The notes below the pieces were generated by a model. The model had not been told where the DNA came from, did no database searches, and saw nothing but the letters and a program-made list of their open reading frames with translations. A stretch of DNA of 64,000 nucleotides from Anthopleura xanthogrammica (lineage: Eukaryota > Cnidaria > Anthozoa > Actiniaria > Actiniidae): contig OZ025210.1 of assembly GCA_964019055.1 (NCBI GenBank), positions 15,089,332 to 15,153,331 on the forward strand, in the 5' to 3' direction. This document shows, one piece after another, positions 27,352-60,825 of the stretch. The position numbers were made by a program, and so were the translations under genes. Each line of letters opens with the position of its first letter. Positions within the stretch are counted from its first letter, which is position 1.

Positions 27352-30300
27352 ATGGCTCACTATATTTTCTGGATTTTTGTGCTACTGATCTGTAAACCAG
27401 GCAAGTATTCATATTTTTTTCAGTGTCCAGTTATCACTAGAAGCTCCATGATACACAAACCTAGAGGTCATTTGAAATAAGTGCGTATTCTCTGTTTTTG
27501 TTCGGTTTGGTAGACGATCAAGAACGCAGTCTATATTGTCTTAAATGCAACAATGTTTTCGGTCAAAATGTTATCACCGATATATCAGAATCAAGCGATA
27601 ATTCCGAATAGAATTTGACTGGAATAAGCATGTAAACACAAACGATCAAACAAGAAGACATATGAAATTGAAATATTCTTACACAGTTCTAAATACGGCG
27701 ACATAAGCTAGTCTGAAAGTTTTACACTACCTTGAATGTTATCAAGGTAGTGTAACTTGATCAAGGTAGAGTGAATGTTATCAAGGTAGTGTAAAACTTG
27801 ATCAAGGTAGAGTAAATGTTATCAAGGTAGTGTAAAACTTGATCAAGGTAGAGTGAATGTTATCAAGGTAGTGTAAAACTTGATCAAGGTAGAGTGAATG
27901 TTATCAAGGTAGTGTAACTTGATCAAGGTAGAGTGAATGTTATCAAGGTAGTGTAAAACTTGATCAAGGTAGAGTGAATGTTATCAAGGTAGTGTAAAAC
28001 TTGATCAAGGTAGAGTGAATATTATCAAGGTAGTGTAAAACTTGATCAAGGTAGAGTGAATGTTATCAAGGTAGTGTAAAACTTGATCAAGGTAGAGTGA
28101 ATATTATCAAGGTAGTGTAAAACTTGATCAAGGTAGAGTGAATGTTATCAAGGTAGTGTAAGACTTGATCAAGGTAGAGTGAATGTTATCAAGGTAGTGT
28201 AAGACTTGATCAAGGTAGAGTGAATTTAATATGGTGACCAGAGTAAATATATTACGGTAGTATAGAACTTTATTAAGGCGGACATTCGCATTGAGGTAAC
28301 ACAAACACATCACGGTAGATAACCACGTCATGACGGAGAAAAAAAATTATGAAACAAACGGCACGCCATAGCGATTTATCCATGCATGATTTGTAAACAT
28401 CCAATGCTTCGTCGAAGCTACGACTGTCTTCTCATCGACAACCTCATTTTAAATCGATAATCTCATCTTCTAATCGATAATTTCACATATAGTGATTTCT
28501 TTTTCTCGTATAATATTTTTTTATTCGAATTCTCGTATAGTTGTTTTTATTCTCATATAGTGATTTCTTTTTCTCGAGGATACCTATCTTTTACAGCGCG
28601 ACGCGCCTTACCGTGGCCACCCTGCCAAAGTTTCGTACAAGTACGATAAATCACTTCTTGCAAAGAATTTCCACATGAAAAAGACTGCCTACGAAAGTAT
28701 TAAGTGTTAGCAAGCCAAAAGAGCAAAACTGGTTTTAGAAATAGAGATTTTTAAGCATTTTCTTCAAGTTCTTGCTCCGAAGTTCAAATATTTGCGGTAA
28801 CAACAAAGCAAGTTCACATGCAAATTAACAGATTCTCGCTTTCTGATTGGTTAACTTGTACGAAACTTTGGCAGGGTGGCCACGGTAAGGCGCGTCGCGC
28901 TGTAAGCCAGGATCCGAGCCAGGATTTAGGCTTTTAGTATCATATTATGAGAAAATCTATCGTAAAAATGTGAAATAAAGTAAAGACCTTTGAAAAGAAT
29001 TACTCAATTGTCGTGTGGTTAGATTTTGAAATCCAGTAGTTGAACATCTTATTTTTTGCTGTGACTATATGCTCGGCACGATCGGTTCTTAATATTAAAC
29101 AGACAGACATCATGAGATTGAAATCGGAGCTAAATGTTTATTCACTACTAAAGGTCAGCCGTACCGAAGCAGATTTATTCGACCGTTGGAAACAAAATAA
29201 AGCGTTAGTTTTAACCCAAACGTGGAAGCGACTCTGGCGCCCGTGGTCCGAACTTTAATTCATTCAGCAAAACAACACAAGTAAGCGCAATCCAATGAAT
29301 TCGAAGCTCAGTGAGTGGAATCATCTTTCGTAAACGGGGTAAACTCCTCACCAGGCTGAAGTTAGCCGCACATTCAGTCGCACATTCGACTTTTGCTCAT
29401 AAATCGCGAAATCGAAAGTAAACCCCACTCGACTTGTTTATAGACTTGTTGCAAATAATCCTGGCTCGGATCCAGGCTCGGATCCTGGCTCCGATCCAGG
29501 CTCGGATCCTGACTCGGGTCCTGGCTCGGATCCAGGCTCGGATCCTGGCTTTACTGCTAGCTTATCTCGTATAGTAATTATATATTCTCGTATCGGAGCA
29601 AGATATTTTGTCACTACTAAAGGTCAGCCGTACCAAAGCAGATTGATGAGACCGTTGAAAACAAAATAAAGCGTTAGTTTTAATCCAAACGTGGAGGCGA
29701 CTCTGGCGCCCGTGTTCCAACGCCGTCAATATTACCCGTATTGGCGGCTCAAAACCGCAATAAGTTTTGTATCTCGATTCTTTTATCGCCCGGCAATTCT
29801 GAGCCGACAATACGGTTTATATTGGCGGCTCTCTCCAGATCAAACTTATAGGAGAATCGCGATATAAGTGTATATTTCTTCGGGAACTTTTTAAAACTTG
29901 AGTTATTTCCAGTATCAAATAAAAAACCAGTAAATCCAGTAAAAAACTTAAATAATTAATTTATCATTGTTTGCTTGCAGTAATGGGTGCTATTACTGGA
30001 CTTACCCTGCTTACTATCTCCGTTGGCGAGACTGCACATTTCCGATGGAATAATACCAACGACAATCCAACCCTTATATATGCTACATGGGGCATAAGAA
30101 AAGGCAACATTGCTGATCCTCAGTTTATCAATGTAGATATAACGAGCAGCAAGGTGTACCTCAACTCAGATCTGGAACCAAACCTTGTAAAACGGCTGTC
30201 CTTTGACGGCGACCTCATGGAAGGTTTCGCATGGTTTACCCTGAAGAACGTTACTGTGAACGATACAAACGAGTACATCGCAAGTATCAGTAAGGACGTT

Positions 30301-33300
30301 AACAGAGTTTTTCATCGCACAGTTGCATTAACTGTAAAGGAACGTAAGAAGGAAGAACAAAATATGATCGGTGAGCTATTGCACTGGTTTTGGAATTTGT
30401 TTCTTACTTTCAGGTATATCTAAAATAAAGATTTTAATTTGAAGAACATTTCTGATTTTTTCTTCTATCTGTTAAGTATTTCATTGATCAAATTTATTGC
30501 ATCCATCCATCCAGTAATTTCATCCTGGCATTCTTTGGCTTATTGATTTCGTCTGTCCTTTCTTTTTCTTTCTTTTTTTTTTTTTTGCCATGAAGAAATC
30601 AATTTGTCTATCTTTCTTTGCAGTTCAGCCCCATGCCAGATTGGTAAACAAACAAAATGCGGGTCATCGTTCCAGCCTAATGACCATGAAATATAATATA
30701 AGAGAATATAAGAATGAATAGCTAACGAACAAAACACTTACTTTTGTATTCTTATATGTCTAGATGTGACTACTAAAGACACGATCACTAAGCAAGCTGT
30801 TCCTTCAATGTCTCCACGAACTTCTAAAACTCTCACGACGAACGGTAATTTGATGACTAATATTTTGTTTTTGGAAACCGATATGTTTCAAATGTGGGGT
30901 ACAGAGCAACTGAATTTCTTCTCGCCGCTATTTTCGGAATCACTTGATATGAGGACATAGTTGTCTACGGTTTATCCAGAATTTGCGGTTTTTCCTCTTT
31001 TGTTACGGTGGTTCCTCAATAGTATACGCGGAATCGTTCAATTTGACGTCGAGACAAAATATTAGGATTTTCTCAAGAAGGCGATTTCTCGTCGTTTTTT
31101 GGTGAAGCACCGTAGTAAGCACCGAAAATCGTTTTCCTATATATTCCCACGAGAGAACCAAGAATTAAAAAAAAACTAATCGATAACAAAAATATTCTGG
31201 TAATGGAAGTAAAATTATGCCATAGGGCAAATGGCCTAGTTGTTGTGGCCTACTTAGAATGAATTGAAACGCACATTTAGCAGCTGTAGTAAGATAATTA
31301 AGGAATGTAAGAAAGTTTTCCTCTAATCTAAACACTTGGGATGTTTGGAGAACACTTGAAAAGCGTAGGGAAACAAAGCCTCAGGCTTAAGCTTTCCTGT
31401 GGCCCGAGATGGCCATGAACTTCCATTTTTTGTGTAAACGATGTTCGTGAAAAAAGGAAAACAAATCGCCGACGAAAGAGAATGATGTGAGCATTTTAAA
31501 TACTCACATCTAAAATGGTGTTTTGACCAATCAGAGCTCGCGTTATATCTTAATTATTTTATAATACACATTCTATCCATGGTCAAATAATTAAAACAGA
31601 GGCCACTAGCTAGGGATATACTGAGCAGCAACTCACGGTACATCTGCTCGCCAGGCCAGTTGCATTTTTGTAGTTTTTAAAGGAACAAACGTATAGTTGC
31701 CAATTCCGTTCATTAACTGTTTTTAATCACCTTTTTTTTTGTTTTTTTGTTACAGAAACAGTAACTGCACCAAATGGTAAGTTGCATGAAAAGCTAATTA
31801 AGTATAATAGACAAGCACATGCACAAACTGTCACCTACACAACATAGCCTGGATATGCTGACTCTTGATCCTTTTATGACGGAACTCATCCTTGCATTGA
31901 TTGGATATATATCCAGTGGATAGCGGCTGGTATAGAAGTAGAACAACAGTGAAAAAATGACATTAAATGTAAGTATATTAAAACAATTCCCTCCAAGATT
32001 TTATCCAAGATTCCAGGTAATCCTTGGGCTCAATATGGAACGAATATGAAAATATTGAAAGTCAATTAGCAAAGTCGTAGCCAACAGAAAAGGAAAAGAA
32101 AGCATCGGGAAAGAAGATAAAGGAAAAGAAAATAGAATTGAGAAAAGGAACATGCATTATCAGAGAAGTATTTTCTGAACAATAATCATGGTATATTTGA
32201 TATCTGATATTTATTTCTTTGTGTGATACTTTTGCCCTTTGCGTATTTTTTCCCTTTCTTTTTTTTCTTTTTTCTTTTTTTTCTTCTATTTTTTCTTTTT
32301 TCTTTGATTTCTATGATTTTATTTTTTACCATAAGAAGTAGAAGTAAAAGTTTACTCACTAAGTGGCGGAGATATTATGGCAGAGCATCATTCTTGACGA
32401 GGAAAATTGCATGGGGAATAAGTAACTGTACGGTCAAAATGAACTATTTTAGAACTATTTTAGATGTCCTCACGGCAGTAGAATATAAAATAAATTGTCA
32501 TTTTCCATCGTTAGAAGTCGATGGATTGGTTGACTGATAAAAGTCTTATAATACTTTTTCAACTCTTATTTTCTTTTAGTAATACACAAGAAGCAGCACA
32601 AGGAATACAGAACCACCGAATATTACTCAAAAGATAACCCAAACATGCTGACGATTACCGCACGGCTGAGCAGCGGAGATATAAATGACAGAGAAACGGT
32701 TCAAACGCGATATTTGCAGGGAAAATAAGTGATTGAACCGCCAATATGAACTATTTACTTATAGGATATTTAGTTCAATCACTTGTCTGTTTGGTGTTTG
32801 TTTGTTTGTTTATTGTTTTTTGTTTTTTTTTGTTACTATTCTTTCTTTATATATAAACTTCACAGGAAGAAGCTGCGCGAGGATACAACTTTCATTTCTT
32901 TCATATAGGTGCCAAAATAAAGCATTTGTTGTCAACGGCTAATCCAAGAAAAGAGGTATGGCCACAGGGAAAGTTACTCTCACTCAAATTTCATAGTTGA
33001 AAAAAAAAGGATATCAAGATACACAGTGAGTTTGTATTGTTTCATTCAGTGGCAACAAAGGTGTTTGAAGAAACAGGCTCCGGGCAGCGACCATTGCTTT
33101 AATCAAATTTATTAAATCAAATTTATATTCAGGCCTATTTTCACCGAACCGTCTCTGCTAAAATACTTTGGACTTTATGTAGTAAATGTATATATTTGTC
33201 AAAAAAATTGGTAAACGGTTTTTAAGTCAGCTAGGTGTGATCTTTACGGGTGATTTACCTGCCTAGAAAGGGAAGAAACGGTTCGAAAGAAGTTTATGAA

Positions 33301-39105: not shown

Positions 39106-40433
39106 CCAACCATCCAACCATCCAACCATCCACCATCCACCATCCAACATCCACATCCAACCATCCAACCACCAACCATCCAACATCCAACCATCCAACC
39201 ATCCACCATCCAACCATCCAACCATCCAACCATCCAACCATCCAACCATCCAACCATCCAACCATCCAACCATCCAACCATCCAACCATCCAACCATCCA
39301 ACCATCCAACCATCCAACCATCCAACCATCCAACCATCCAACCATCCAACCATCCAACCATCCAACCATCCAACCATCCAACCATCCAACCATCCAACCA
39401 TCCAACCATCCAACCATCCAACCATCCAACCATCCAACCATCCAACCATCCAACCATCCAACCATCCAACCATCCAACCATCCAACCATCCAACCATCCA
39501 ACCATCCAACCATCCAACCATCCAACCATCCAACCATCCAACCATCCAACCATCCAACCATCCAACCATCCAACCATCCAACCATCCAACCATCCAACCA
39601 TCCAACCATCCAACCATCCAACCATCCAACCATCCAACCATCCAACCATCCAACCATCCAACCATCCAACCATCCAACCATCCAACCATCCAACCATCCA
39701 ACCATCCAACCATCCAACCATCCAACCATCCAACCATCCAACCATCCAACCATCCAACCATCCAACCATCCAACCATCCAACCATCCAACCATCCAACCA
39801 TCCAACCATCCAACCATCCAACCATCCAACCATCCAACCATCCAACCATCCAACCATCCAACCATCCAACCATCCAACCATCCAACCATCCAACCATCCA
39901 ACCATCCAACCATCCAACCATCCAACCATCCAACCATCCAACCATCCAACCATCCAACCATCCAACCATCCAACCATCCAACCATCCAACCATCCAACCA
40001 TCCAACCATCCAACCATCCAACCATCCAACCATCCAACCATCCAACCATCCAACCATCCAACCATCCAACCATCCAACCATCCAACCATCCAACCATCCA
40101 ACCATCCAACCATCCAACCATCCAACCATCCAACCATCCAACCATCCAACCATCCAACCATCCAACCATCCAACCATCCAACCATCCAACCATCCAACCA
40201 TCCAACCATCCAACCATCCAACCATCCAACCATCCAACCATCCAACCATCCAACCATCCAACCATCCAACCATCCAACCATCCAACCATCCAACCATCCA
40301 ACCATCCAACCATCCAACCATCCAACCATCCAACCATCCAACCATCCAACCATCCAACCATCCAACCATCCAACCATCCAACCATCCAACCATCCAACCA
40401 TCCAACCATCCAACCATCCAACCATCCAACCAT
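39106..40433. repeat. (CCATCCAA)n octamer microsatellite, about 1.3 kb
   Basis: An almost perfect 8-bp repeat (atccaacc) in about 165 units. Irregular units occur only in the first 100 bases. All reading frames stay open on both strands (TIQPSNHP on plus, MVGWLDGW on minus) because 8 codons span three units. None of these is a gene. Confidence 0.98.
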
Positions 40434-42798: not shown

Positions 42799-42969
42799 TG
42801 GCGAGTCAGTTGAAACTGAATTGACACGGAAGATACTGAAATTTAAAGTTTGTTTTATGCAAGATTCATCATAATTCTGAAAGTAATGTTAATAATGTTA
42901 TTAATGAATTATCGATCACCATTTTTTGTTCAAAATTAACTTTCAAAGTGTATTATTTATTCGTACCAG

Positions 42970-43168
42970 CGCAGCCAACATTCACCAATCAATTCCAGCC
43001 AAACAATATAGTCCTTGAGGGTAGAGATCTGCGTATCAGTTGTTCTGCAACTGGAACTCCCACACCAAACATCACTTGGTTGTCACTGAAAGACCAAACA
43101 AAGGAGTTAAAAAGCAAAGGAGTGGGTTACGCTGATCTTATCATACGGAATATCACAAGGCATCAAAA
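42970..43168 (+). pseudogene. I-set Ig exon A, copy 1, truncated
   Basis: It begins after the acceptor gtaccag and reads QPTFTNQFQPNNIVLEGRDL, then CSATGTPTPNITW. It breaks off at TRHQN where the intact paralogue continues GTYLC. The following bases match intron sequence found upstream of the exon at 55601, so a deletion fused exon and intron. The F-strand cysteine and the donor site are lost. Confidence 0.75.
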
Positions 43169-46100
43169 TATACTGCTATTGCTGAACTTAGTATGAAAAT
43201 TATGTTACGTGTTTAGTTTGGGCGACACGGTTAGCTCTTAATCTTATTGAATATTAATGAGTTTTAGAATTACCAATTATCAAATTGTTGAATTATCAAT
43301 TACAAATTATCACATTATCAATCATACAGGACATACTTAAATGTGTATTTTTTTTCGGAACTCTTGATGCGTCTATAACAAGCGATTTTTATGCACATTG
43401 ACCGGCGGGTTTCCTTTGTGACGTCCGCTGACCACAGGCTCAGTCACGCCATGAGATGCTCGAATTTTGCTCGGATTTTATAGCAAAGCAAAGTATACCG
43501 TAGCAATCTAGGAATATGGTCGGTAGTTTTCTTAGTTAGTAAAGAGGAAGATATATAATGTGTATATTCATCAAATTTTGTGTTGTTTTGCACTTCGCCG
43601 AAAGGAATGCTTTGCTATAAGACTATCGAACGACCGACGGTCCTTTGAAATACAGCAGCCACTTTAGCACACTGCAAGAGGGCCTGATGTAAGTATAAAA
43701 ACTTTTATTGATTGATACATAGTTGATCCAAGGGAACAGCTTCCATGTTACTGAAGTAATCCACTATACAATTTTAGAAAGCCGTTCTTGATATTGTTAT
43801 GCGAAGCCAAATGCCATCAAAATGCATAATGTCAACATTGTCACGTAAGCGTAGATTTTCACTCACCTGTACTTGTCAACCCTTCAGCCGCCGACCAAAA
43901 TTTAGAATAAATATAATACAAATCTTTATTATAATGCTAAGTTATGGCATATATTCAACGATTTCATTTATGTACTTAGATATCGAAAATATCTGGCTTT
44001 TTCGGAAGAATCATCATTTACAAAGTGATAAGTTGACACTGTTTTTCGAAAAACATTGGCCTTATCTCTAATTATATCGGAATTTCACTATTTTTGAACC
44101 TCTCAGGGAGTCCAATGATTAAGTAAACGTGCAAAAGAGTTGGAAAAACGGTTGGAAATGCACCAAACTTCTCATCTTGCCATCGTAGTTTGACGATTTG
44201 GAGAAAATATTATGGCTCTCAATGACAGGTTTCAAGCACGGCCTGCGCAAAGAAATTAAGAGGTCCCAATAATTTTATTCTTGAATTCCTTAGACCAATC
44301 ATAGAGTTAAACGATGATGGTGTTGTCATTTGAATATAGCCTTGGCCATTGGAGATATTTGGTCATCAAAATGGCCTATTTTGGCATGTTATTTTATAGG
44401 GTTAATTATTAACGTCTGCTGATTGACAAGGCTTCAATCAAACTACTGCAAACTCCTGTCATGGATTGACAAAAGATGTAAGTATACTCATGTCCAGCCA
44501 AAATAGAATCTGTTGAATTCTGAGAGTTTGGGAGGTCTTCACTTTTTCCATTTTGCAGGGTGAATTTTTTGAGATTTTTGGAAAAAAAGCAGGGGGGGTG
44601 GTCTAACTCCCCCCGGATAATTCCGAATTCCAAAATATTTTGGCATGTAGAGTTTTTGAGTGAAGCCTTTCTCTGTGCCAAGTTTCATTGAAATCGGAGA
44701 GATGGCATGTATCACGTCTGCCTGGTCCTCTCATGGACAGGCTCTTAAATGTGTATTTTTTTTTCTTTACATTAGCGCGGCCAAAATTCACCAGTCAATT
44801 TCAAGCAAACATTATAGTTCTTGAGGGTAGAGATTTACGTATCAATTGTTCTGCAACTGGAAATCCAACACCAAACATTACTTGGGTGTTACTGAAAGAC
44901 CAAATCAAAGAGATAAAAAGCCAAGGAACAGGTTACGCTGACCTTATCATACAGAACATCACAAGACATCAAAACGGGACGTATCTGTGCAAGGCACCAA
45001 CAACCCAAATGAGTATCCGGTGGAAAACCAAACTGAAGTCACTATATGGTGTAAGTATTCAGAGCATCTTGAATTACCGAATAATCTTTTCGATGGTTAT
45101 AACTTATTGCGATTTTGAGCCGCCAATACGGGTTATATTGACGGCGTTGGAAGAATATATATTCCTTATTAGTAGTAGTCGCGAAGCAAATAAGTTTTGT
45201 ATCGCGATTTGCCTATCGCCCGGGAATTATGAGATGACAATACGGGTTTATATTGGCGGCTCTCTCCAAATGAAACTTATAGGAGAATCGCGATACTACC
45301 TCTTATAGCGTTGGCGTATTGTTATAGCTTTTTTTATGACTGACTTGTCTTTTTTTCAGAATGTACCTGCATTTCACAACAAGTTACCAGATAATATTAT
45401 GGACATTGACTTTCTTACTATAAGACACACGAGTCATTTTGACTTTTAACCATTTTTGTTTTATTGATTCCTTTTTTGATTGCCTAGACAAACCTCAAAT
45501 GACGTTTCTAAACGTTTCTGTCGACGAAAAGTACATCTTATTTTGTGTAGCGAGTGGACAGCCACACCCTTTAATCAAGTGGTATTATCCTAGTGGAATG
45601 CAAGTTGAATCTGGGGTCACAGATATAACTGGTGGCAGCAGAATGATTCTCGAAATACCAGAGCACAACGTTGGCTTATATGGAGTGTACAAATGTAACG
45701 CAACAAATGAAGTGGGCTGGGAAGTGGGTTACATCAACATTACCCAAATAAGTAAGGGAAATATTATTTTATTTATATCAGTAGTTAAGATAAAGATATG
45801 TTCATCAAATATAAAAATAAATGGATGTTTTTGTGTTTTTGTAATTTGAATTATTCTATAATTTATCATTACTATTTTGTTATCGACTGCTAAACCTGTT
45901 CGATTTGCTGACTAAATACCCATATCTTAGCGATATGAAGCTCAAGCTATCACTTGTTATTTCAGAACGTCCAACAACAATAACAGTGACAGATAAATCT
46001 GTTATGGTAACCTCGAAACGGGATGTGAAAACAAAAGGTAGCAATGGGAGAGGTACTAGAGTGATTTTACTTTGCTCGTGAAAAAGTAGTAACCTAATCT

Positions 46101-48108
46101 TAATAATGACATTGGAAAAAAATAGAAAATAAAGTTGAACGTGATGAATATCTGTTACCCATATCTTCGCGATATGAAGCTCAAACTATCACTTGTTATT
46201 TCAGAGCGTCCAATGACAATAACAGTGACAGAGAAATATGTTATGGTAACCTCGAGACGTGATAAGAAAACAAAAGGTAGCAATGGGCTAGCTATCAATA
46301 ACTGCTAGAGTGATTTTACTTTGCTCGTGAAAAAGTACTAAGCTAATCTTAATAATGACATTGGGAAAAATAGAAAAAAAAGTTGGATTTGATGTGTATC
46401 GGTTAATTAAGCACCATAATTTTTTTTCCGCTGTTAACGGGCTTTCGAGGAAAGGGCGGAAGGGAGATTAAAACCGATGGGAATGGGAAGTTTCTTCTTT
46501 TCTCCTTCACCACCTTATTTCACCTTCTTTGGAGAACCTGATGTTATCTTTCTCTTAGATATTGTGAAATAAAGTATGTAAAAGCACCATTTATTCCTCT
46601 CGGTTTTTTTTCTTTCTTTCTATATTTTCTTTTCTTTCTTTTTTTAGTCACCCCAACCTTGGCATCATTACAAACAACAGCTAACCATAAATGCGCACTG
46701 CCTTCGTCAAATGCTTTTTATCAAGGTAAGCATAGCATGTCACGAGCCCAATCACACAAAAAAGCTATTCATTGCATCTCATGAATCTAGCACTACTTTT
46801 TGCCTCGCACTTAAAGGAACAAGGGTATCAACACCACTAGTATTTATCGCAACAAAACAAATGAGTTATGGAAATATAGCTGCAATAGCAAACAATAATA
46901 TTGGTATTAATTTATTCGATCCCTAATTATTTTTAAATTATTGTTCATTTCGTTATGGTACAGGAAAAATCTTTGCAATTATGAATCTGTCGATAACGTG
47001 CGTTTCAGTCATAATCAATGTCGTCCTCATAACGTACAATATTTACACCAAGTGTAAAAGAACCAATTTTAAAGGTAAGTATGCATTTTTTTATTTGTAT
47101 TTGTTTTCATTTACTTGTGCTTTATAACGCTGTTTTCCCCTTTTACATCAATGAAAAAATGTGATTCTAAAATTGATTCTGTATTGATGTGGTGGTATGC
47201 TTTATTTGCAGATGACAGGAAAGAGGTTACAAGGTGATGTATTTAGTCTCTCGATAGGAGTAAAAACAAAAAGCACTTGGCTATTTGGCTTTTCTAATAT
47301 AATAAACGATAATGCCAACTGGAACAGCTTAAACCTAAACGATATTCACTGATAAATACTCTGTGTTCTAGAACTATTAGAGAAACTAGTTTCCTTCGAA
47401 ATTAAAAAAAAAATGTTTTCTCCAACAGATTTTCCTGCCCAGTTGTGGCTAGAACACCAAATGAGGTATGATGATGATATTTACCTTGATGTTTTTACTT
47501 AATTTTAATCAAAGAATACAAATATATTTATTTATTATTTCGATATTTCCTGATCTATCGTTCCGTCCTTTTTTTCTCCTTTCCTCCTATCCATCCTTCC
47601 TTCCCTCTTTTCCTTTGATTCCTCCTTCCTTCCTCCCTTCTTCCTCCCTCCTTCCTTCAATTCTTTAACTTCATATTTTTATTATTTTGCAAATCATGTT
47701 TTACATAAATATCAGGGACCAGTTGCTCTAACAACAGTTGAGAATTCTACTACGAATGATGTATTAGCCGAAAATGTATCAAAGATATCCTCAAACGAAG
47801 ACTACGAAAGAATATCAGAAAAATCTGAGCCATCCTCGGATTCCGGGAATTCAGCACAAGGGAAAAATTTGTGTGACGTTCAACTTTCACAGACTCACCA
47901 TGATTATCAAGAGCTTTTAAATAGTGATGCTTTGATGACGAACATACAAAGCTATCAGGCACTAAACAGGACTCTAGGAGACAGTGTTAGACGAGAAGAA
48001 CTTCCCATGCCTCTCCGAAAATACGAAGAATTAAACTTTGCAAATAACCCACAAAGTTTGGAATATCAGAAATTACATCTGTATGCAAATATTGGAGACA
48101 AAAAGTAA
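42970..48108 (+). CDS. IgSF receptor with tyrosine-motif tail, tandem copy 1
   Basis: Exons found by splice signals and phase: I-set A 42970-43168 (truncated), I-set B 44776-45050 (frameshift), Ig C 45488-45751, stalk 45966-46037 and 46205-46276, stalk 46648-46725, transmembrane 46964-47074, 47212-47233, 47429-47465 and tail 47716-48108. From exon C on all phases fit and there is no stop before TAA at 48106. Ig C has CVASG, WYYPSG and YKCNAT. The membrane helix is FAIMNLSITCVSVIINVVLI. The tail carries YERI, YQEL, YQAL, YEEL, YQKL and YANI. No signal-peptide exon was found upstream, where a LINE remnant lies. If the I-set exons are skipped (both have phase 1 at each end by design) the rest can still be translated. 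Otherwise the gene is dead. A role in self/non-self or pathogen recognition is inferred from resemblance to cnidarian Alr-type proteins. Confidence 0.6.
43357..44743. mobile_element. 1.39-kb insertion flanked by a 20-bp direct repeat
   Basis: CTTAAATGTGTATTTTTTTT occurs at both sides (43336-43355 and 44744-44764). The third paralogue has a single copy and no insert (55570-55590), which gives the empty site. A long target duplication suggests a retroposed element, yet no reverse transcriptase or A-tail is seen. It is duplicated unchanged at 49711-51097. Confidence 0.7.
44776..45050 (+). pseudogene. I-set Ig exon B, copy 1, one-base frameshift
   Basis: It reads RPKFTSQFQANIIVLEGRDL, then INCSATGNPTPNITW and NGTYLC. 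One A is missing just after the codon pair following that Cys (gcacc against gcaacc in the exon at 55601). The rest is out of frame although the donor gtaagt is intact. The exon is 275 nt against 276 in the intact paralogue. Confidence 0.8.
47716..48108 (+). CDS. Cytoplasmic tail exon, copy 1
   Basis: This 130-codon last exon starts at GPVALTTVEN after the acceptor atatcag and ends at GDKK. It has six Yxx(L/I) sites. LEYQKL is a strict ITIM. YQEL and YQAL are separated by 12 residues and YEEL and YQKL by 10, both within ITAM spacing. The rest is polar and probably disordered. Such sites recruit SH2 proteins when phosphorylated. Confidence 0.8.
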   Translation, partial: GPVALTTVENSTTNDVLAENVSKISSNEDYERISEKSEPSSDSGNSAQGKNLCDVQLSQTHHDYQELLNSDALMTNIQSYQALNRTLGDSVRREELPMPLRKYEELNFANNPQSLEYQKLHLYANIGDKK

Positions 48109-48496
48109 CACCGCAAATATACTGTCATCGGTTTGTCATGTTCCTGTTTCGGTGCTTTTCATTCGTGACCATGCGATGCAAAACTGTTTTCGCTTTTGAC
48201 AACAACATCGACTAAATTTCTACTTATAACTTCCTTCGATAACTTTCGTATAAATGTCTTAATGATGTTACTTGTCACAAGTGAGTGTTTTTCACACACA
48301 TCATTTCTTAACCTTTTTTTGTTGTTATATTTTAGAGTTTTAGAGAGAATTAAGAATTTAGAAATATTTTATCACAGTTTTGTTTTAAGAATTATAATTT
48401 TGTGTATACTTTTCGTGGTTTGAAACTGAAATGTCAGGTTAGACTGAAAGCCATAATGTTCGTTGTGTGAACAATCGATATTTAAAAACGGATATA

Positions 48497-49152
48497 ATTA
48501 CTCGGGCTACCTGCAAGGCAGGCCGAGTCTAGGTTTCGGTTTTCTATCTATCTATCAGTCTATCGACGATGTTAGAAGTAAGTAAGCCTGCGCTGCTCGG
48601 CGGTCAGCGGTGTTCCCCTGCAATCATGAAAACGAGGCGGCTTGACGACAACTCATGTGACTTGCTTTGCTCTTCGAAGGTCCTTTTAATCGCTGCTCCT
48701 CGTGGTTAGAAATATCTGAAAACTTCTAGAAAAGTCATGGCGAATTGCTGTTCTTCTGAGACGCTCAAAACACATACAAACGCACACGCCGTTCGCGGTA
48801 GACCCACTCTAAAATATGTCGAGCGTTTTCGGAACGGGCCGATCCGCGAACTCAAAGAGAAATGCCAAAAGAATACTAGAAAAACTAGAAATACTAGAAA
48901 AATCAAAGCCAAAGAAACTCAAATGAACTCAAATGAACCTCAAACGAACTCAAATGAACTTAGAGGTACTCAGAGGGATTCAGAAGGAAGAACAAATGCT
49001 AACTCTTTAGTAAGCAGGAACATTGACAACGAAAATGAGAAAGACAGGGAAAATATCCCAAACAACATGAACGCCATATTGGAATCTGTCAAGATAACAT
49101 TTAATGCGTTTCCAGAATCAAGAAGCGTTGGACATATATCAATGACAGTGAG
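48497..49152 (+). other. Sequence between the tandem units, unknown open frame
   Basis: It is not present to the left of unit 1. An open frame (48737-49228, 163 codons) starts MANCCSSETLKTH, has a basic Arg/Lys/Asn-rich middle (KNTRKTRNTRK, repeated NSNE) and runs 25 codons into unit 2. No domain is recognised. It might be the 5' part of a retroelement ORF1 or a real first exon. A TCTA microsatellite (ctatctatctatc) lies at 48545. Confidence 0.35.
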
Positions 49153-49323
49153 TGGCGAGTCAGTTGAAACTGAATTGACACGGAAGATACTGAAATTTAA
49201 AGTTTGTTTTATGCAAGATTCATCATAATTCTGAAAGTAATATTAATAATGTTATTAATGAATTATCGATCACCATTTTTTGTTCAAAATTAACTTTCAA
49301 AGTGTATTATTTATTCGTACCAG

Positions 49324-49522
49324 CGCAGCCAACATTCACCAATCAATTCCAGCCAAACAATATAGTCCTTGAGGGTAGAGATCTGCGTATCAGTTGTTCT
49401 GCAACTGGAACTCCCACACCAAACATCACTTGGTTGTCACTGAAAGACCAAACAAAGGAGTTAAAAAGCAAAGGAGTGGGTTACGCTGATCTTATCATAC
49501 GGAATATCACAAGGCATCAAAA
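49324..49522 (+). pseudogene. I-set Ig exon A, copy 2, truncated
   Basis: Same truncation as in copy 1, ending at TRHQN. The deletion therefore predates the tandem duplication or was spread by conversion. Confidence 0.75.
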
Positions 49523-52500
49523 TATACTGCTATTGCTGAACTTAGTATAAAAATTATGTTACGTGTTTAGTTTGGGCGACACGGTTAGCTCTTAATCGTA
49601 TTGAATATTAATGAGTTTTAAAATTACCAATTATCAAATTGTTGAATTATCAATTACAAATTATCACATTATCAATCATACAGGACATACTTAAATGTGT
49701 ATTTTTTTTCGGAACTCTTGATGCGTCTATAACAAGCGATTTTTATGCACATTGACCGGCGGGTTTCCTTTGTGACGTCCGCTGACCACAGGCTCAGTCA
49801 CGCCATGAGATGCTCGAATTTTGCTCGGATTTTATAGCAAAGCAAAGTATACCGTAGCAATCTAGGAATATGGTCGGTAGTTTTCTTAGTTAGTAAAGAG
49901 GAAGATATATAATGTGTATATTCATCAAATTTTGTGTTGTTTTGCACTTCGCCGAAAGGAATGCTTTGCTATAAGACTATCGAACGACCGACGGTCCTTT
50001 GAAATACAGCAGCCACTTTAGCACACTGCAAGAGGGCCTGATGTAAGTATAAAAACTTTTATTGATTGATACATAGTTGATCCAAGGGAACAGCTTCCAT
50101 GTTACTGAAGTAATCCACTATACAATTTTAGAAAGCCGTTCTTGATATTGTTATGCGAAGCCAAATGCCATCAAAATGCATAATGTCAACATTGTCACGT
50201 AAGCGTAGATTTTCACTCACCTGTACTTGTCAACCCTTCAGCCGCCGACCAAAATTTAGAATAAATATAATACAAATCTTTATTATAATGCTAAGTTATG
50301 GCATATATTCAACGATTTCATTTATGTACTTAGATATCGAAAATATCTGGCTTTTTCGGAAGAATCATCATTTACAAAGTGATAAGTTGACACTGTTTTT
50401 CGAAAAACATTGGCCTTATCTCTAATTATATCGGAATTTCACTATTTTTGAACCTCTCAGGGAGTCCAATGATTAAGTAAACGTGCAAAAGAGTTGGAAA
50501 AACGGTTGGAAATGCACCAAACTTCTCATCTTGCCATCGTAGTTTGACGATTTGGAGAAAATATTATGGCTCTCAATGACAGGTTTCAAGCACGGCCTGC
50601 GCAAAGAAATTAAGAGGTCCCAATAATTTTATTCTTGAATTCCTTAGACCAATCATAGAGTTAAACGATGATGGTGTTGTCATTTGAATATAGCCTTGGC
50701 CATTGGAGATATTTGGTCATCAAAATGGCCTATTTTGGCATGTTATTTTATAGGGTTAATTATTAACGTCTGCTGATTGACAAGGCTTCAATCAAACTAC
50801 TGCAAACTCCTGTCATGGATTGACAAAAGATGTAAGTATACTCATGTCCAGCCAAAATAGAATCTGTTGAATTCTGAGAGTTTGGGAGGTCTTCACTTTT
50901 TCCATTTTGCAGGGTGAATTTTTTGAGATTTTTGGAAAAAAAGCAGGGGGGGTGGTCTAACTCCCCCCGGATAATTCCGAATTCCAAAATATTTTGGCAT
51001 GTAGAGTTTTTGAGTGAAGCCTTTCTCTGTGCCAAGTTTCATTGAAATCGGAGAGATGGCATGTATCACGTCTGCCTGGTCCTCTCATGGACAGGCTCTT
51101 AAATGTGTATTTTTTTTTCTTTACATTAGCGCGGCCAAAATTCACCAGTCAATTTCAAGCAAACATTATAGTTCTTGAGGGTAGAGATTTACGTATCAAT
51201 TGTTCTGCAACTGGAAATCCAACACCAAACATTACTTGGGTGTTACTGAAAGACCAAATCAAAGAGATAAAAAGCCAAGGAACAGGTTACGCTGACCTTA
51301 TCATACAGAACATCACAAGACATCAAAACGGGACGTATCTGTGCAAGGCACCAACAACCCAAATGAGTATCCGGTGGAAAACCAAACTGAAGTCACTATA
51401 TGGTGTAAGTATTCAGAGCATCTTGAATTACCGAATAATCTTTTCGATGGTTATAACTTATTGCGATTTTGAGCCGCCAATACGGGTTATATTGACGGCG
51501 TTGGAAGAATATATATTCCTTATTAGTAGTAGTCGCGAAGCAAATAAGTTTTGTATCGCGATTTGCCTATCGCCCGGGAATTATGAGATGACAATACGGG
51601 TTTATATTGGCGGCTCTCTCCAAATGAAACTTATAGGAGAATCGCGATACTACCTCTTATAGCGTTGGCGTATTGTTATAGCTTTTTTTATGACTGACTT
51701 GTCTTTTTTTCAGAATGTACCTGCATTTCACAACAAGTTACCAGATAATATTATGGACATTGACTTTCTTACTATAAGACACACGAGTCATTTTGACTTT
51801 TAACCATTTTTGTTTTATTGATTCCTTTTTTGATTTCCTAGACAAACCTCAAATGACGTTTCTAAACGTTTCTGTCGACGAAAAGTACATCTTATTTTGT
51901 GTAGCAAGTGGACAGCCACACCCTTTAATCAAGTGGTATTATCCTAGTGGAATGCAAGTTGAATCTGGGGTCACAGATATAACTGGTGGCAGCAGAATGA
52001 TTCTCGAAATACCAGAGCACAACGTTGGCTTATATGGAGTGTACAAATGTAACGCAACAAATGAAGTGGGCTGGGAAGTGGGTTACATCAACATTACCCA
52101 AATAAGTAAGGGAAATATTATTTTATTTATATCAGTAGTTAAGATAAAGATATGTTCATCAAATATAAAAATAAATGGATGTTTTTGTGTTTTTGTAATT
52201 TGAATTATTCTATAATTTATCATTACTATTTTGTTATCGACTGCTAAACCTGTTCAATTTGCTGACTAAATACCCATATCTTAGCGATATGAAGCTCAAG
52301 CTATCATTTGTTATTTCAGAACGTCCAACAACAATAACAGTGACAGATAAATCTGTTATGGTAACCTCGAAACGTGATGTGAAAACAAAAGGTAGCAATG
52401 GGAGAGGTAATAGAGTGATTTTACTTTGCTCGTAAAAAAGTAGTAAGCTAATCTTAATAATGACATTGGAAAAAAATAGAAAATAAAGTTGGACGTGATG

Positions 52501-54664
52501 AATAACTGTTACCCATATCCTCGCGGTATGAAGCTCAAACTATCACTTGTTATTTCAGAGCGTCCAATGACAATAACAGTGACAGAGAAATATTTTAGGG
52601 TAACCTCGAAACGTGATGTGAAAACAAAAGGTAGCAATGGGATAGCTAGTAGAGTGATTTTACTTTGCTCGTGAAAAAGTACTAAGCTAATCTTAATAAT
52701 GACATTGGGAAAAATAGAAAATATAGTTGGATTTGATGAATGCCTGTTACCCATATCTTCGCGATATGAAGCTCAAACTATCACTTGTTATTTCAGAGCG
52801 TCCAATGACAATAACAGTGACAGAAAAATATTTTATGTAACCTCAAAACGTGATAAGAAAACAAAAGGTAGCAATGGGCTAGCTATCAATAACTGCTAGA
52901 GTGATTTTACTTTGCTCGTGAAAAAGTACTAAGCTAGCTAATCTTAATAATGACATTGGGAAAAATAGAAAGTAAAGTTGGATTTGATATATATCGGTTA
53001 ATCAAGCACCATAATTTTTCTTTTCGCTGTTAACGGGCTTTCGAGGGAGGGGCGGAAGGGAGATTAAAACCGATGGGAATGGGAAGTTTCTTCTTTTCTC
53101 CTTCACCACCTTATTTCACCTTCTTTGGAGAACCTGATGTTATCTTTCTCTTAGATATTGTGAAAGAAAGTATGAAAAAGCACCATTTATTCCTCTCGTA
53201 ATTTTCTTTCTTTATATAATTTGTTTTCTTTCTTTTTTTTAGTCACCCCAACCTCGGCATCATTGCAAACAACAGCTAACCATAAATGCGCACTGCATTC
53301 GTCAAATGCTTTTTATCAAGGTAAGCATAGCATGTCACGAGCCCAATCACACAAAAAAGCTATGCATTGTATCTCATGAATCTAGCACTACTTTTTGCCT
53401 CGCACTTAAAGGAACAAGGGTATCAACACCACTAGTATTTATCGCAACAAACCAAATGAGTTATGGAAATATAGCTGCAATAGAAAACAATACTATTGGT
53501 ATTAATTTATCGATCCCTAACTATTTTTAAATTATTGTTAATTTCGTTATGGCACAGGAAAAATCTTTGCAATTATCAATCTGTCGATAACGTGCATTTC
53601 ACTCATAATCAATGTCGTCCTCATAACGTACAATATTTACACCAAATGTAAAAGAACCTCTTTTAAAGGTAAGTATGCTTTTTAACGCTGTTTTCCCCTT
53701 TTACATCAATGAAAAAATGTGATTCTGAAATTGCTTCTGTATTGATGTGGTGGTATGTTTTATTTGCAGATGACAGGAAAGAGATTGCAAGGTGATGTAT
53801 TTAGTCTCTCGATAGGAGTAAAAACAAAAAGCACTTGGCTATTTGGCTTTTCTAATATAATAAACGATAATGCCAACTGGAACAGCCTAAACCTAAACGA
53901 TATTTACTGATAAATACTCAGTGTTCTAGAACTATTAGAGAAACTAGTTTCCTTCGAAATTTAAAAAAAAAATGTTTTCTCCAACAGATTTTCCTGCCCA
54001 GTTGTGGATAGAACACCAAATGAGGTATGATGAGGATATTTGCCTTGATGTTTTTACTTTTAATCAAAGAGTACAAATATATTTATTTATTATTTTGATA
54101 TTTCCTGATCTATCGTTCCGTCCTTTTTTTTCTCCTTTCCTCCTATCCATCCTTCCTTCCCTCTTTTCCTTTGATTCCTCCTTCCTTCCTCCCTTCTTCC
54201 TCCCTCCTTCCTTCTATTCTTTAACTTCATATTTTCATTATTTTGCACATCATGTTTTACATAAATATCAGGGACCAATTGCTCTAACAGCAGTTGAGGA
54301 TTCTACTACGAATGATGTTTTAGCCGAAAATGCATCAAAGATATCCTCAAATGAAGACTACGAAAAAATATCAGAAAAATCTGAGCCATCCTCGGATTCC
54401 GGGAATTCAGCACAAGGGACAAGTAAATGTGAAGTTCAACTTTCACAGACTCATCATGATTATCAAGAGCTTTTAAATACGGATGTTTTGATGTCGAATA
54501 CACAAAGCTACCAAGCACTAAACAGGACTCTAGGAGACAGTGTTAGACGAGTAGAACCTCCCATGCCTCTCCGAAAATACGAAGAATTAAACTTTGCAAA
54601 TAACCCACAAATTTTGGAATATCAGAAATTACATCTGTATGCAAATATTGGAGACAAAAAGTAA
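49324..54664 (+). CDS. IgSF receptor with tyrosine-motif tail, tandem copy 2
   Basis: Exons: I-set A 49324-49522 (truncated), I-set B 51130-51404 (frameshift), Ig C 51842-52105, stalk 52320-52391, 52559-52630 and 52797-52867, stalk 53243-53320, transmembrane 53558-53668, 53770-53791, 53988-54024 and tail 54272-54664. The I-set lesions are identical to those of copy 1. Ig C is identical in protein. The third stalk exon is 71 nt instead of 72 and so shifts the frame unless skipped. The first two are intact. The membrane segment reads FAIINLSITCISLIINVVLI. The tail differs from copy 1 at 16 of 130 residues but keeps all six Yxx(L/I) motifs (YEKI in place of YERI). AATAAA at about 55102 could end the transcript. 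No signal peptide exon was found. Confidence 0.6.
51130..51404 (+). pseudogene. I-set Ig exon B, copy 2, one-base frameshift
   Basis: Same missing base after TYLC as in copy 1, and the encoded stretch is identical. The donor gtaagt is intact. Confidence 0.8.
52320..52867 (+). repeat. Tandemly triplicated stalk exon module
   Basis: Three modules of about 240 bp each hold one 72-nt phase-1 exon (RPTTITVTDKSVMVTSKRD and relatives) with its flanking intron. Copy 1 has two modules. The third here lost one base. Module number is thus variable between the two genes. Confidence 0.8.
54272..54664 (+). CDS. Cytoplasmic tail exon, copy 2
   Basis: It starts GPIALTAVED and ends GDKK. By my count it differs from copy 1 at 16 codons by amino acid and at about 6 silently. 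The Yxx(L/I) motifs and their spacing are unchanged (YQEL-12-YQAL, YEEL-10-YQKL, then YANI). Confidence 0.8.
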   Translation, partial: GPIALTAVEDSTTNDVLAENASKISSNEDYEKISEKSEPSSDSGNSAQGTSKCEVQLSQTHHDYQELLNTDVLMSNTQSYQALNRTLGDSVRRVEPPMPLRKYEELNFANNPQILEYQKLHLYANIGDKK

Positions 54665-55078
54665 CACCGGAAATAAAATGTCATCGGTTTGTCTTGTTCC
54701 TGTTTCGGTGCTTTTCATTCGTGACCATGGGATGCAAAACTGTTTTCGCTTTTGACAACAACATTGACTAAATTTCTACTTATAACTTCCTTCGATAACT
54801 TTCGTATAAATGTCTTAATGATGTTACTTGTCACAAGTGAGTGTTTTTCACACACATCATTTCTTAATCTTTTTTTGTTGTTATATATTAGAATTTTAGA
54901 GAATTAAGAATTTAGAAATATTTTATCACAGTTTCGTTTTAAGAATTTAAGTTTAAAAATTTTAGTGAGAATTATAATTTTGTGTATACTTTTCGTGGTT
55001 TGAAAATGAAATGTCAGGTTAGACTGAAAGCCATAATGTTCGTTGTGTGAATAATCGATATTTAAAAACGGATATAGT

Positions 55079-55384: not shown

Positions 55385-55876
55385 GAGCGCATACAATGGG
55401 AATATACTGCTATTGTTGAACTTAGCATGAAAAATATGTTACGTGTTTAGTTTGGGCGACACGATTGGCTCTTAATCTCATTGAATATTAACGAGTTTTA
55501 GAATTACCAATTATCAAGTTGTTGAATTATCAATTACAAATTATCACATTATCAATCATACAGGACATACTTAAATGTGTAATGTTTTTCTTTACATTAG
55601 CGCGGCCAAAATTCACCAGTCAATTTCAAGCAAACAGTATAGTCCTTGAGGGTAGAGATTTACGTATCAATTGTTCTGCAACTGGAAATCCAACACCAAA
55701 CATTACTTGGGTGTTACTGAAAGACCAAACCAAAGAGATAAAAAGCCAAGGAATAGGTTACGCTGACCTTATCATACAGAACATCACAAGACGTCAAAAC
55801 GGGACGTATCTGTGCCAGGCAACCAACAACCCAAATGAGTATCCCGTGGAAATGAAAACTCAAGTCACTATATGGT
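55385..55876 (+). CDS. Orphan intact I-set Ig exon (third paralogue)
   Basis: The exon is 55601-55876 (276 nt, phase 1 at both ends) after the acceptor tttacattag and before the donor gtaagt. It encodes a complete I-set domain: RPKFTSQFQANSIVLEGRD, CSATG, NITW, YADLIIQNIT, GTYLCQATN and TQVTIW. The upstream 55385-55600 matches the intron of the tandem genes but lacks their 1.39-kb insertion. No partner exon follows, since transposon sequence begins within about 400 bases. It is a relic of a third gene copy that preserves the undamaged state. Confidence 0.75.
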
Positions 55877-56925: not shown

Positions 56926-59900
56926 TAAAGGTGAATATTATCTCATCGATATGATAATTTCTGACACGTAGATACTGATGAGTAGTAAAGTGACCAAAAG
57001 TATTGTTTTATGTCTTTTATGAATACTCTAGTATGACAAAAGAACGCCAACTAAAATGAAAGATAGGAAGATTACACTGAGTGCAGCAACTGCAAGAAGA
57101 AGAAGAGATGAGCTTTACAAGGCTGCAGAAGCAATCAATGGATCCACGAAAACGGCTGCAGATATTGGGCTTGCTGATACTCTAGTGAAAAAGTGTAGTG
57201 TTGCTACTATAACGAATGTTTTTTTCTGGTAACTCTAGGATTAGCAAAAAGGTTATCCCTCTACTTTATAAGCCACACTTGACTAATTATGAACTAGACG
57301 CTGGTTGCAGCGTGCACTGGGATACCTGGACCGGGTGGGACCAGGGGCAGGGGAAGGGGGAGGGTCCTAGGGTGCCCTTGACCCACACTTTGTGGAAAAA
57401 GAGTGATCAATTATGAAATAAGTATGATGTATCGTACTCTCGAGGCCCTCGTTTTCTTTTTTCGTCGTTTTTCAAAAGACAGTGAGAGACTGCCTACTAT
57501 AAATGTACAATGAAGCTATTTTGGGGAAAAAAAGTTAAATCAAAAACTAAATCATCGAAAATACCCATTTTGTTGAAGTCCAACTTCCATATCCTTCCGA
57601 TTCCAGTCCGAGTTTTATCATACTTAATTAAGTCGCAGACAGAAAGTCGGCAAAGCGAGCTGACGGAGAAACGTTTTCTTTAGCTCAGCATTTTGTTTAC
57701 TAGTTGAGTCCTTCATTTAGAACGGTAAGACGAGCAAATAATTGCTCAAAACGTCCCTCAGAATTGCATTACATTTTATAATTTTGTATTCGTATATATT
57801 TGTAAATCAGTCGACAGTTCGTAAATATTTAACGAGTCCCGTGAGTTGAATGAATCTGAGGGTCAAAAGGCATGCGTTCGATTTTTAAAACATGGAATAT
57901 GTTACAATTATTTGCCGATTTAACATGGAATAATTATCATTACTCTTTCTTAATATCAAAATGAAAGTCCGAATAAACTTCTTTGTACCTCATGTTTATT
58001 TGTAGTAGTGTTGTTGAGTCAAAACATTAAATATAGCATCCGAGAATCGGGTCGCTAAAACTCAAATGAAGTCATGACGTCCTATCTGTTTGAATTTAGC
58101 TTGGAGATCTTTAACACAAGAATTATTTGCTAATTTGTAACTTGGTACTGATACTACAGACAATATTGCGTTGAATAGCTGAGTTAAAGCACGAGTAGTC
58201 AATTAAAGTTAGATATTTGCCAAGATAAATGAAAATTCTTTAGAAATCTTGGTTTGATTAGAATTATCCTTGTTTACGAATAAATAAAAAATTCTGACTC
58301 AGCTCAGTCTTGAATTACAGCAGTCAACGATATAGAGCATGCGTAGACATTAAATTATGTCACGTGATAAGCTAGCTCCGCCCTCTATTAATTACTTGGC
58401 AACATAGTGGCATTGATTGACAGGTGACACATATTAATTAATCGGATTCATAGACGGGAACCCTGTGGCAGATGCCCGCTAAGGACTCTTGGGTAAGGGC
58501 GCAATGACCCTCCGGGTAGTATTGCGCAATTTGTTCATTTTGTCGCGAAGAAGACACAAAAAAAAAAAAAAAAAAAAAAAACCAAAGACATTTTATGACT
58601 GTGATACCACAGGTATCCCAGTAAAAATCTGATGGTAAATATGCTTTGTAGTGTAGCTACATATTATAGTGGTGGTGTAATGGGTAAGCAGAAATATAGA
58701 TCTGTTTATAAAAATAGTAGTTATGGTAAGGGTAAACGTAAAGCAGTTAATAATTGTCCTATTCCTAGATTAGTACCTTATAATAAGCTTATTGACATAG
58801 GTAAGCTATACAGTGTGAAGAGAGACACTTTGTGATGGTTTGAATGAAGATGAAAAAGCCAATGGTATGTACCGTTCTTTGAAGGAGCTGTTGTTGATGC
58901 TTGCTACATTTTATCTTCATCAAGATGTACACAAACTCATTTGGTTCAAAGGGCAAACTAACACTTTTTTTGTTTCTTTATAATTAGGTGGTGATGGAGC
59001 ACCCTTTGGGAAAGATGATGTTGCTTTTGCATGGCTTGTTAGTTTTTTGAATGTGGGGAGAGGTGTACTGAGCAGTAATGAGAATGTTCTGCTGTTCGGT
59101 GCCAACTGTACTGAAAATGCCATCCCTGTACAGATATTTATTAGACTTCTTGTAGCTGAAATCAGTGACATTGAAAAATCAAGTCATACTGTTTATGTCA
59201 ACAAATCCCCTGTTACTGTTAATTTCCACTTTGCAGAGCTCCCCAATGACATGAAAATGCTTGCATTTTTTGGTTGGGGAGCTTTCAAATAGTGCAAAGT
59301 ATTTTTCCACCTTTGCAAATGTTGATTATGACAGTGCTAAAACTTCTTCTGGTAGTTTTCTTTAGGTACTGGCACAACTTGGAGTCCATGGAGCTATCAA
59401 CACAGACTTAAAGTGGCCAAGCAAGTGGCAGACCTAAAGCAAAGTATTTCTAACAAGAAATTAGCACCTGCAACTAAAAGATCTAAGGTAACAAACTTCA
59501 TTGCTAACCAAAAAAGCCATCAAGAGTTTCCTCCACCCATAGGTAAGTTGATTGACCGTGCACATATTGAACCATTGCATTTGAAGAATAATGCATGTGC
59601 TCTTGCACACAGGTTTCTTTTAACAGAAGTTCTGTTAATGTCTGATTTACCTAAGTCAATTACATTTTCAGAGGTTCCTAGTCACTCTCCTTTCTCAAAG
59701 TACATCACATCAATGCGTACATGTTGTAATCGTGGTCGCCTTTCAAAGAAAATTGTGAGATGGTTTAATGAAACAAGGTCTTCCAGTAATAAAAACATGG
59801 ACTATAGGTTCACTGGTAAAGATTCAAAAATGTTTCTCCACAATTTCAATGTCTTGATTTCATCAGTGATTTCAAGTGCTATGGCAACAGAGAGGATAAG

Positions 59901-60460: not shown

Positions 60461-60825
60461 AGATGAAAGTGTAATTGTTGTTCACAAACCAATTGATTTA
60501 TGCATTTTCAACACTATTTTATTTATACCCTGTATATTGTTTAATTATCATTCAAAACAAAATCATTGTATTGATATATTTTGAAACCCTATGCTGTACA
60601 TTATTTATTTATCTATTTATTTTATTTAGTTATTTATCATGCTTGCATAATTTGTGAGACATGAATTGTACATTGTTTTGTTTTAAAATATGCAAAATAA
60701 AGGCATTTTAAACCATTTCACATCTCCAATTATTATTTTTTCATTCATATTTATTCATTTATCCATACATTCACATATCACACTTGGTCACTATACGCAA
60801 CCATTCACTCATTCCTTGCTATATG

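Follow-up and report, generated by a model that had tools for sequence, protein, structure and literature searches.

Anemones and corals distinguish self from conspecifics, and in the excerpt available of a review of anthozoan immunity the cnidarian allorecognition molecules named are the Alr loci of Hydractinia (PMC7563517). The excerpts of the papers on which our comparison with this hydrozoan draws describe an allorecognition complex (ARC) of clustered immunoglobulin superfamily (IgSF) genes and pseudogenes in one chromosomal region, with single-pass products bearing unusual V-set and I-set domains, and with immunoreceptor tyrosine-based activation and inhibition motifs (ITAM and ITIM) on candidate allorecognition genes (PMC11067881, PMC11999971, PMC12065747); divergent ARC alleles are separate in the assembly (PMC11067881). 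Here we describe a 64-kb stretch of contig C5 (C5:15089332-15153331, hereafter the window) from a genome that we take to be that of a sea anemone, in which two tandem gene copies, A and B, end in cytoplasmic tails with six Yxx(L/I) motifs each. These tails probably form the 3' ends of genes from a large family of single-pass, immunoreceptor-type IgSF receptors that lie clustered in the genome, and the best reading of this multigene family is that it is organised like the Hydractinia ARC. The assembly searched totals 289.8 Mb in 125 contigs, of which C5 makes up 16.47 Mb.

The features of the ARC listed above find their likeness in the anemone genes, for the unusual domains only in part, and the differences are several. 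The anemone I-set domains keep the ordinary Cys-Trp-Cys pattern, one modelled gene combines two V types, loci on two contigs have in common tails with three to six motifs, many more V exons were matched here (though matches are not genes), and the animal is anthozoan, not hydrozoan. The fester co-receptors (FcoR) of Botryllus also come from a cluster; the excerpt available describes type I proteins, 520-610 residues long, that combine V-type and C2-type Ig domains with tails bearing ITIM, hemITAM or core Yxx(I/L/V) motifs, but they carry a sushi domain, belong to the fuhc allorecognition locus and are chordate (PMC12065747); we liken them to the anemone genes by layout only. The oyster CgIgIT2 is likewise an invertebrate Ig receptor with a signalling ITAM tail, but it has five Ig domains, is presented in the excerpt as one protein and is molluscan (PMC11999971). 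For Podocoryna, similarity to Alr1/Alr2 has been judged by BLASTP scores >50 bits, TM-scores >0.5 and root mean square deviations <2, and the same 2026 preprint, also seen as an excerpt, places the complexes on Hydractinia chromosome 3 and Podocoryna chromosome 7 and announces cross-cnidarian homology of allorecognition genes, with a manuscript in preparation (PMC13119343), so that the general idea of cnidarian-wide homology has been raised before. The matches listed from the open-licence literature included no account of this anthozoan cluster.

Tail motifs in the window copies and their relatives

The initial annotation had placed tandem IgSF receptors at 45488..54664, and both borders proved exact: the copy A I-set exon begins at 45488 and the copy B stop codon ends at 54664. 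The tandem unit itself is longer than had been claimed, starting near 42.8 kb (42799-48496 compared with 49153-55076). From the Ig3 domain to the stop, each copy consists of eight exons, one for Ig3, three for the stalk, one for the membrane helix and three for the tail, of which two are short and the last has 393 bases (Table 1). Their borders are AG/GT and their phases agree, and in both copies the reading frame stays open across seven introns. The annotated layout of Ig domain, stalk, one membrane helix and tail was recovered in frame from the I-set domain to the stop in A and B alike.

Both tails carry the same six motifs in the same order, as had been annotated (YERI or YEKI, then YQEL, YQAL, YEEL, YQKL and YANI). 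These motifs hold every tyrosine of the 150-residue tail in each copy, the first site lying 50 residues into the tail, and a count of six Yxx(L/I) sites was reached by 0 of 100,000 shuffles of each tail. The annotated sequence LEYQKL does match the ITIM consensus, but an ITIM match was also contained in 27-28% of shuffles; the ITIM alone is therefore weak evidence, and the YxxL/I count strong evidence. Of the ITAM assignment the spacing survived, as YQEL-x12-YQAL and YEEL-x10-YQKL are ITAM-like (1.9% of shuffles), whereas the acidic residue at position -3 was found in neither copy. The two tails differ at 19 residues, one of which falls within the six motif windows. Ordinary duplication would leave A and B with shared motifs, so the pair is not independent evidence, and it is conservation across the family that counts.

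Thirty tails were sampled: the two window copies, 23 other type-I tails and, from a 200-kb region of C5, one further type-I and four type-II tails, type II being a second tail type with the same motif order and about 30% identity to type I. Near-identical copies and stop-bearing matches were left out of the sample, and four truncated or frameshifted tails were excluded, leaving 26 intact tails (25 distinct proteins) of the two types. In these, 139 of 140 tyrosines lie in YxxL/I/V, with three to six sites per tail. The ITIM consensus (I/V/L/S)xYxx(I/V/L) is present in 26/26 intact tails, and the ITAM-like spacing YQxL-x11/12-YQxL in 25/26. Five sites are present in all of the type-I tails compared (n=21), the YQEL site reading YQEL or YQQL; an apparent loss of this site in eight of the 21 was rejected as an alignment-gap effect. 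The sixth site, YANI, is found in 14 of the 21, with Phe in the other seven, all of which are C6 copies. In the same 21 tails the ratio of nonsynonymous to synonymous substitution rates (dN/dS) was 0.22 for motif codons (bootstrap 0.06-0.55) and 0.52 (0.36-0.73) for other codons. These estimates support purifying selection on the tails, with the lowest value in the tyrosine motifs and with overlapping intervals.

Vertebrate SLAM/CD2-type and paired ITIM/ITAM receptors resemble the anemone genes in their multi-tyrosine tails and in placing a V-set domain that lacks the canonical disulfide ahead of an Ig domain that has cysteines. The SLAM-type switch motif TxYxx(V/I) was present in 0/26 intact anemone tails, and a SLAM-type switch receptor was set aside on this ground; homology to the vertebrate receptors is supported by no test.

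Receptor exons across the genome: array, gene models and Ig domains

The counts given below are of exon matches in the animal's own genome, and stand neither for genes nor for a haploid gene count. The tail exon gave 58 matches at E<=0.001, located on C5 (13.95-15.30 Mb), on C6 (15.26-15.92 Mb) and on the 52-kb contig C40. The V domain of the window (V-A) gave 103 matches, 91 of them on C5 at 10.0-15.95 Mb, and a second V type found beside C6 tails (V-B) gave at least 150 on C5, C6, C9, C20, C21 and C40, a lower bound taken from 150 of 174 candidates scored. A core at C5 13.94-15.48 Mb holds 56 of the 103 V-A matches and 33 of the 46 strongest tail matches, with a second tail group on C6. Judged by these matches, the window is a small piece of an approximately 1.4-Mb array of clustered IgSF receptor exons on C5. 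More distant V-A and V-B matches lie outside the core (C5 10.0-13.8 Mb, C6 14.9-15.0 Mb, C20, C21 and C9), which suggests that such V exons span several megabases of C5, with outposts on other contigs. A single ordinary adhesion gene was set aside in view of the copy number and the constraint on the tails. The joined Ig3-to-tail protein of copy A had no match at E<=10 in a set of 5.8 billion proteins, which is presumably thin in this clade.

In 200 kb fetched from C5 (13.95-14.15 Mb), V-A, V-B, Ig2, Ig3, helix and tail exons are repeated, and the strong matches are all on the plus strand. One complete gene could be modelled in this region, with a signal peptide, V-A, V-B, Ig2, Ig3, a helix and three tail exons, together coding for 640 residues. 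The model extends from the signal-peptide exon (157403-157475, offset 13,950,000) to 176197, with no internal stop and with GT-AG borders at 8/8 introns, and this one modelled gene of the cluster would encode a type I single-pass protein with a signal peptide. Two loci on C6 have stalk, helix and tail exons, with identities to copy A of 85% for the tail and 86% for the helix. V-B exons occur some 0.85 kb past a tail, and in three pairs on C6 they precede the next same-strand tail by 3.3, 3.4 and 4.1 kb; the downstream tails of these pairs are 78-82% identical to copy A, and we read the pairs as putative V-B-first genes. Near-identical stalk, helix and tail exons recur next to different V types.

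Compared over 300 columns at a time, copies A and B are 98-100% identical as far as about 46.1 kb (42799-46100 compared with 49153-52450) and 92-98% identical in the 3' half, a step that suggests exchange or gene conversion of one half, or two duplications of different age. Within the C5 core, 46 of 83 exons (50 of the 56 V-A matches, six weak minus-strand ones being left out, and 33 tails) fall into groups of equal bit score, with collinear offsets near 543, 569-576, 635-640 and 843 kb. Two of these groups, compared over 3.4-kb loci, are 99.6-100% identical where aligned, and contig C40 repeats one block. The chances are about even that part of the gene number, possibly including the near-identical blocks around the window, is an effect of assembly, with both haplotypes placed in one contig; that divergent Alr1 alleles were kept apart in a Hydractinia assembly (PMC11067881, excerpt) is counted in favour of this explanation. 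The blocks are interleaved, however, and do not form two simple tandem halves, and the A/B pair differs by 2-8% in its 3' half. The equal-score collinear groups may be recent segmental duplications or retained haplotypes.

In V-A, Cys was found in 0/31 members at the two canonical places (assigned by spacing), the B-strand place being Trp in 30 and Arg in one, and the F-strand place Ala in 27, Thr in three and Ser in one; 11 of the 31 have a cysteine elsewhere. In V-B (n=12, strands assigned by eye) no member has the B-strand Cys, 8/12 have the F-strand Cys, and an invariant Cys precedes strand D, so the B- and F-strand cysteine pair of V-set domains is absent from both V types. A V-A profile built from 18 members gave IgSF proteins in all of the best 60 of 108 PDB matches, including TIM-3 (best E 1.2e-3), CD4, MPZL1, CAR and sodium channel beta-2, those of V-set class being presumed as such by us. 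The V-B profile matched CEA at 1.3e-10 over the whole chain, with no single stretch passing, and CEACAM1 at 3.7e-10 over a 23-position stretch, and its alignments with MXRA8 (1.3e-5) and PD-L1 (0.013) cover most of the profile. V-A and V-B are related to each other (hhalign probability 88, E 3e-6, 25% identity). Both match V-set structures in spite of the missing cysteine pair, and the I-set domains are ordinary, with the canonical Cys-Trp-Cys pattern kept. Alr domains were reportedly described by Huene et al. in 2022 as being without many diagnostic motifs.

Among the best 60 of the 287 PDB matches of the V-B profile were also CD226, TCR gamma and the adhesion proteins DCC, contactins, NCAM and Robo. 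This reach to neural adhesion proteins, though perhaps made through generic Ig features, would suit ordinary adhesion receptors whose YxxL/I sites are YxxPhi clathrin-adaptor sorting signals, and the sites do all fit the YxxPhi consensus as well. We consider this improbable, given three to six sites at fixed spacing, the ITIM residue at -2 in 26/26 tails, a first site 50 residues into the window tails, and a multigene array.

For V-A, dN/dS was 0.30 overall (n=31) and 0.40 in the group of the window exon (n=5), and the largest group (n=17) reached 0.74 (0.48-1.29). In the largest group the proportion of nonsynonymous differences (pN) exceeded that of synonymous differences (pS) in columns 41-70 and 111-120, and pS exceeded pN in columns 71-110; this comparison of pooled pairs, made with no formal test, is suggestive of diversified V-A loops.

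Weighing the receptor assignment and a proposed mechanism

A number of observations weigh against an immunoreceptor family of this kind. The tails were gathered as matches to copy A or to a single type-II tail, with motif retention counted on intact relatives only, and the dN/dS interval for motif codons overlaps that for the other codons. When the full ITAM, (D/E)xxYxx(L/I)x6-12Yxx(L/I), was sought, the acidic residue at -3 was found in 1/26 tails and in neither window tail. Single V-A sequences scored below the Pfam V-set cut-off (13.2 against 26 bits), Pfam V-set matched 4/18 V-A members at E<=1, no more than it matched of an unrelated family, and dN/dS gave no clear positive selection in V-A. 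An AlphaFold prediction of the window V exon from its single sequence had a mean predicted local distance difference test score of 32, and the fold was discarded. The complete gene model omits a stop-bearing V-B fragment near 170.4 kb, the choice of the model's signal-peptide exon and short tail exons was made by a rule and by visual inspection, and no recognised V or Ig exon was found in the 3 kb above one C6 gene.

Further such points come from the window copies, which have a single intact Ig exon each (Ig3). The same 1-base frameshift interrupts Ig2 in A and B, Ig1 is cut to profile positions 1-67 of 92 in both, profile annotation of the window found no V exon between the copies, and the rule used found no signal-peptide exon for the window V exon at positions 24-30 kb of the window. 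The tandem receptors of the initial annotation stand as an immunoreceptor-type layout, but hardly as complete receptors in their present form. In addition, the third stalk repeat of copy B is frameshifted near 52.8 kb (judged by eye), and some other units of the 200 kb are broken by stops or frameshifts, as some tail matches in the genome are by stops. It is only a little short of an even chance that A and B are decaying or incomplete duplicates whose tails persist while no full receptors are made. The stretch from Ig3 to the stop is nevertheless open in both copies, the window V-A exon joins copy A Ig3 in frame if the broken Ig exons are skipped (a fact of reading frame and not a transcript), and the tail exons are under purifying selection across paralogues.

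In the clustered immunoreceptor-type family that we prefer, the ectodomain would begin with one or two V-set domains that lack the canonical disulfide and continue with I-set domains and, in some members, a stalk, and the cytoplasmic tail carries three to six Yxx(L/I/V) sites in fixed order. The V domains would bind a ligand on a touching cell, perhaps homophilically, and Src-type kinases would phosphorylate the tail tyrosines. A kinase with tandem Src homology 2 (SH2) domains, for example Syk, could then dock on the ITAM-like pair YQxL-x11/12-YQxL, and a tandem-SH2 phosphatase on the ITIM-like site [LS]xYxxL, so that one tail might give both activating and inhibitory output; the outcome may be activation, inhibition or both. 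As the domain exons are of phase 1-1, their skipping or exchange would be possible in frame, allowing heads and tails to be swapped. The role of such receptors would lie in self/non-self or other immune recognition. SH2 exons gave 50 matches in the genome, including adjacent pairs such as C10:11494257/11494999, and these adjacent pairs suggest that Syk and SHP are encoded there. In the excerpt available of an earlier study, Syk/Zap70-type kinases are reported to track the Bcl10/CARD-CC pathway, whose history extends to cnidarians; such kinases are implied for cnidarians, with upstream ITAM receptors only inferred (PMC5978004).

A large germline array with repeated I-set and V-set exons and immunoreceptor tails would fit equally well a set of innate-immune or symbiont-recognition receptors with no part in histocompatibility, whose V domains bind microbial or algal ligands and whose tails set activation thresholds. 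Contigs C59 and C44 (17 and 11 kb) hold COX1 frames that differ from the animal's own and look alveolate-like on visual inspection; the animal may thus have carried partners, algae or other alveolates. The variable V columns 41-70 and 111-120 fit either kind of ligand, and nothing here separates the two readings; we regard this alternative as a serious one, somewhat below even probability. On the side of histocompatibility, the cluster is a good candidate for self/non-self discrimination in sea anemones. A fuller proposal, which we put forward tentatively and think rather doubtful, is that it is the anthozoan counterpart of the Hydractinia ARC, a megabase histocompatibility locus of V-V-I-I receptors with ancient ITAM/ITIM-Syk/SHP signalling, whose tails were spread among V domains by exon exchange and gene conversion. 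If true, the cluster would supply both the missing clone-recognition genes of anemones and the missing upstream receptors of cnidarian Syk. With a mapped cluster and conserved immunoreceptor tails in hand, clone recognition and the questions upstream of Syk become testable by genotype, binding and knockdown.

Feature coordinates and other observations

Table 1. Receptor exons in the window (window positions, all on the plus strand)
Feature	Position	Strand	Basis or detail
V-A exon, V-set-like, without canonical cysteines, phase 1-1, only V exon recognised in window	29981..30343	+	acceptor ttgcttgcag, donor gtaaga
Copy A Ig1, truncated pseudo-exon, I-set type	42972..43169	+	profile positions 1-67 of 92
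Copy A Ig2 exon, I-set type, 1-base frameshift	44776..45050	+	275 bases, two frames
Copy A Ig3 exon, intact I-set, phase 1-1	45488..45751	+	Pfam Ig_3 1.7e-7, I-set 2.6e-7
Copy A stalk exon 1	45966..46037	+	exon joins
Copy A stalk exon 2 (repeat of exon 1)	46205..46276	+	exon joins
Copy A stalk exon 3	46648..46725	+	exon joins
Copy A transmembrane exon	46964..47074	+	19-residue mean hydropathy 2.3
Copy A juxtamembrane exon	47212..47233	+	exon joins
Copy A second tail exon	47429..47465	+	exon joins
Copy A main tail exon, six Yxx(L/I) motifs, stop	47716..48108	+	exon joins, motif scan
Copy B Ig1, truncated pseudo-exon	49326..49523	+	profile
Copy B Ig2 exon, frameshift as in copy A	51130..51404	+	profile, frames
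Copy B Ig3 exon, intact I-set	51842..52105	+	exon joins, profile
Copy B stalk exon 1	52320..52391	+	exon joins
Copy B stalk exon 2	52559..52630	+	exon joins
Copy B stalk exon 3	53243..53320	+	exon joins
Copy B transmembrane exon	53558..53668	+	exon joins, profile
Copy B juxtamembrane exon	53770..53791	+	exon joins
Copy B second tail exon	53988..54024	+	exon joins
Copy B main tail exon, six Yxx(L/I) motifs, stop	54272..54664	+	exon joins, motif scan
Intact Ig2 exon of third, partial unit; no Ig3, helix or tail recognised downstream in window	55601..55876	+	Ig_3 2.2e-15

Elsewhere in the window, a 13.8-kb array at 2922-16683 consists of 264.6 copies of a 52-base unit with 97% matches, an 18-base unit is arrayed at 222-1388, and an 8-base CCAACCAT array at 39106-40433 opens long spurious frames. 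A DDE transposase frame at 18493-19173 on the minus strand (Pfam DDE_Tnp_4, E 1.2e-39) presumably belongs to a PIF/Harbinger-type element. Direct repeat blocks at 20568-25143 and 56955-64000 flank the receptor copies, their pieces of more than 300 bases being 93-98% identical apart from one at 85%, and these blocks hold a 450-residue frame with a best Pfam E of 0.047.

The mitochondrial contig C125 is 20,039 bases in length and reads TGA as Trp. Its genes, named by eye, include cox1 in two pieces with another frame between them, nad1 and nad3 between two pieces of nad5, and a 646-residue frame of no assigned family between cox2 and nad4; two tRNA genes were found (Met, and one with anticodon UCA). 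We take this gene layout to be hexacorallian, and the 646-residue frame presumably makes a sea anemone the most likely source.

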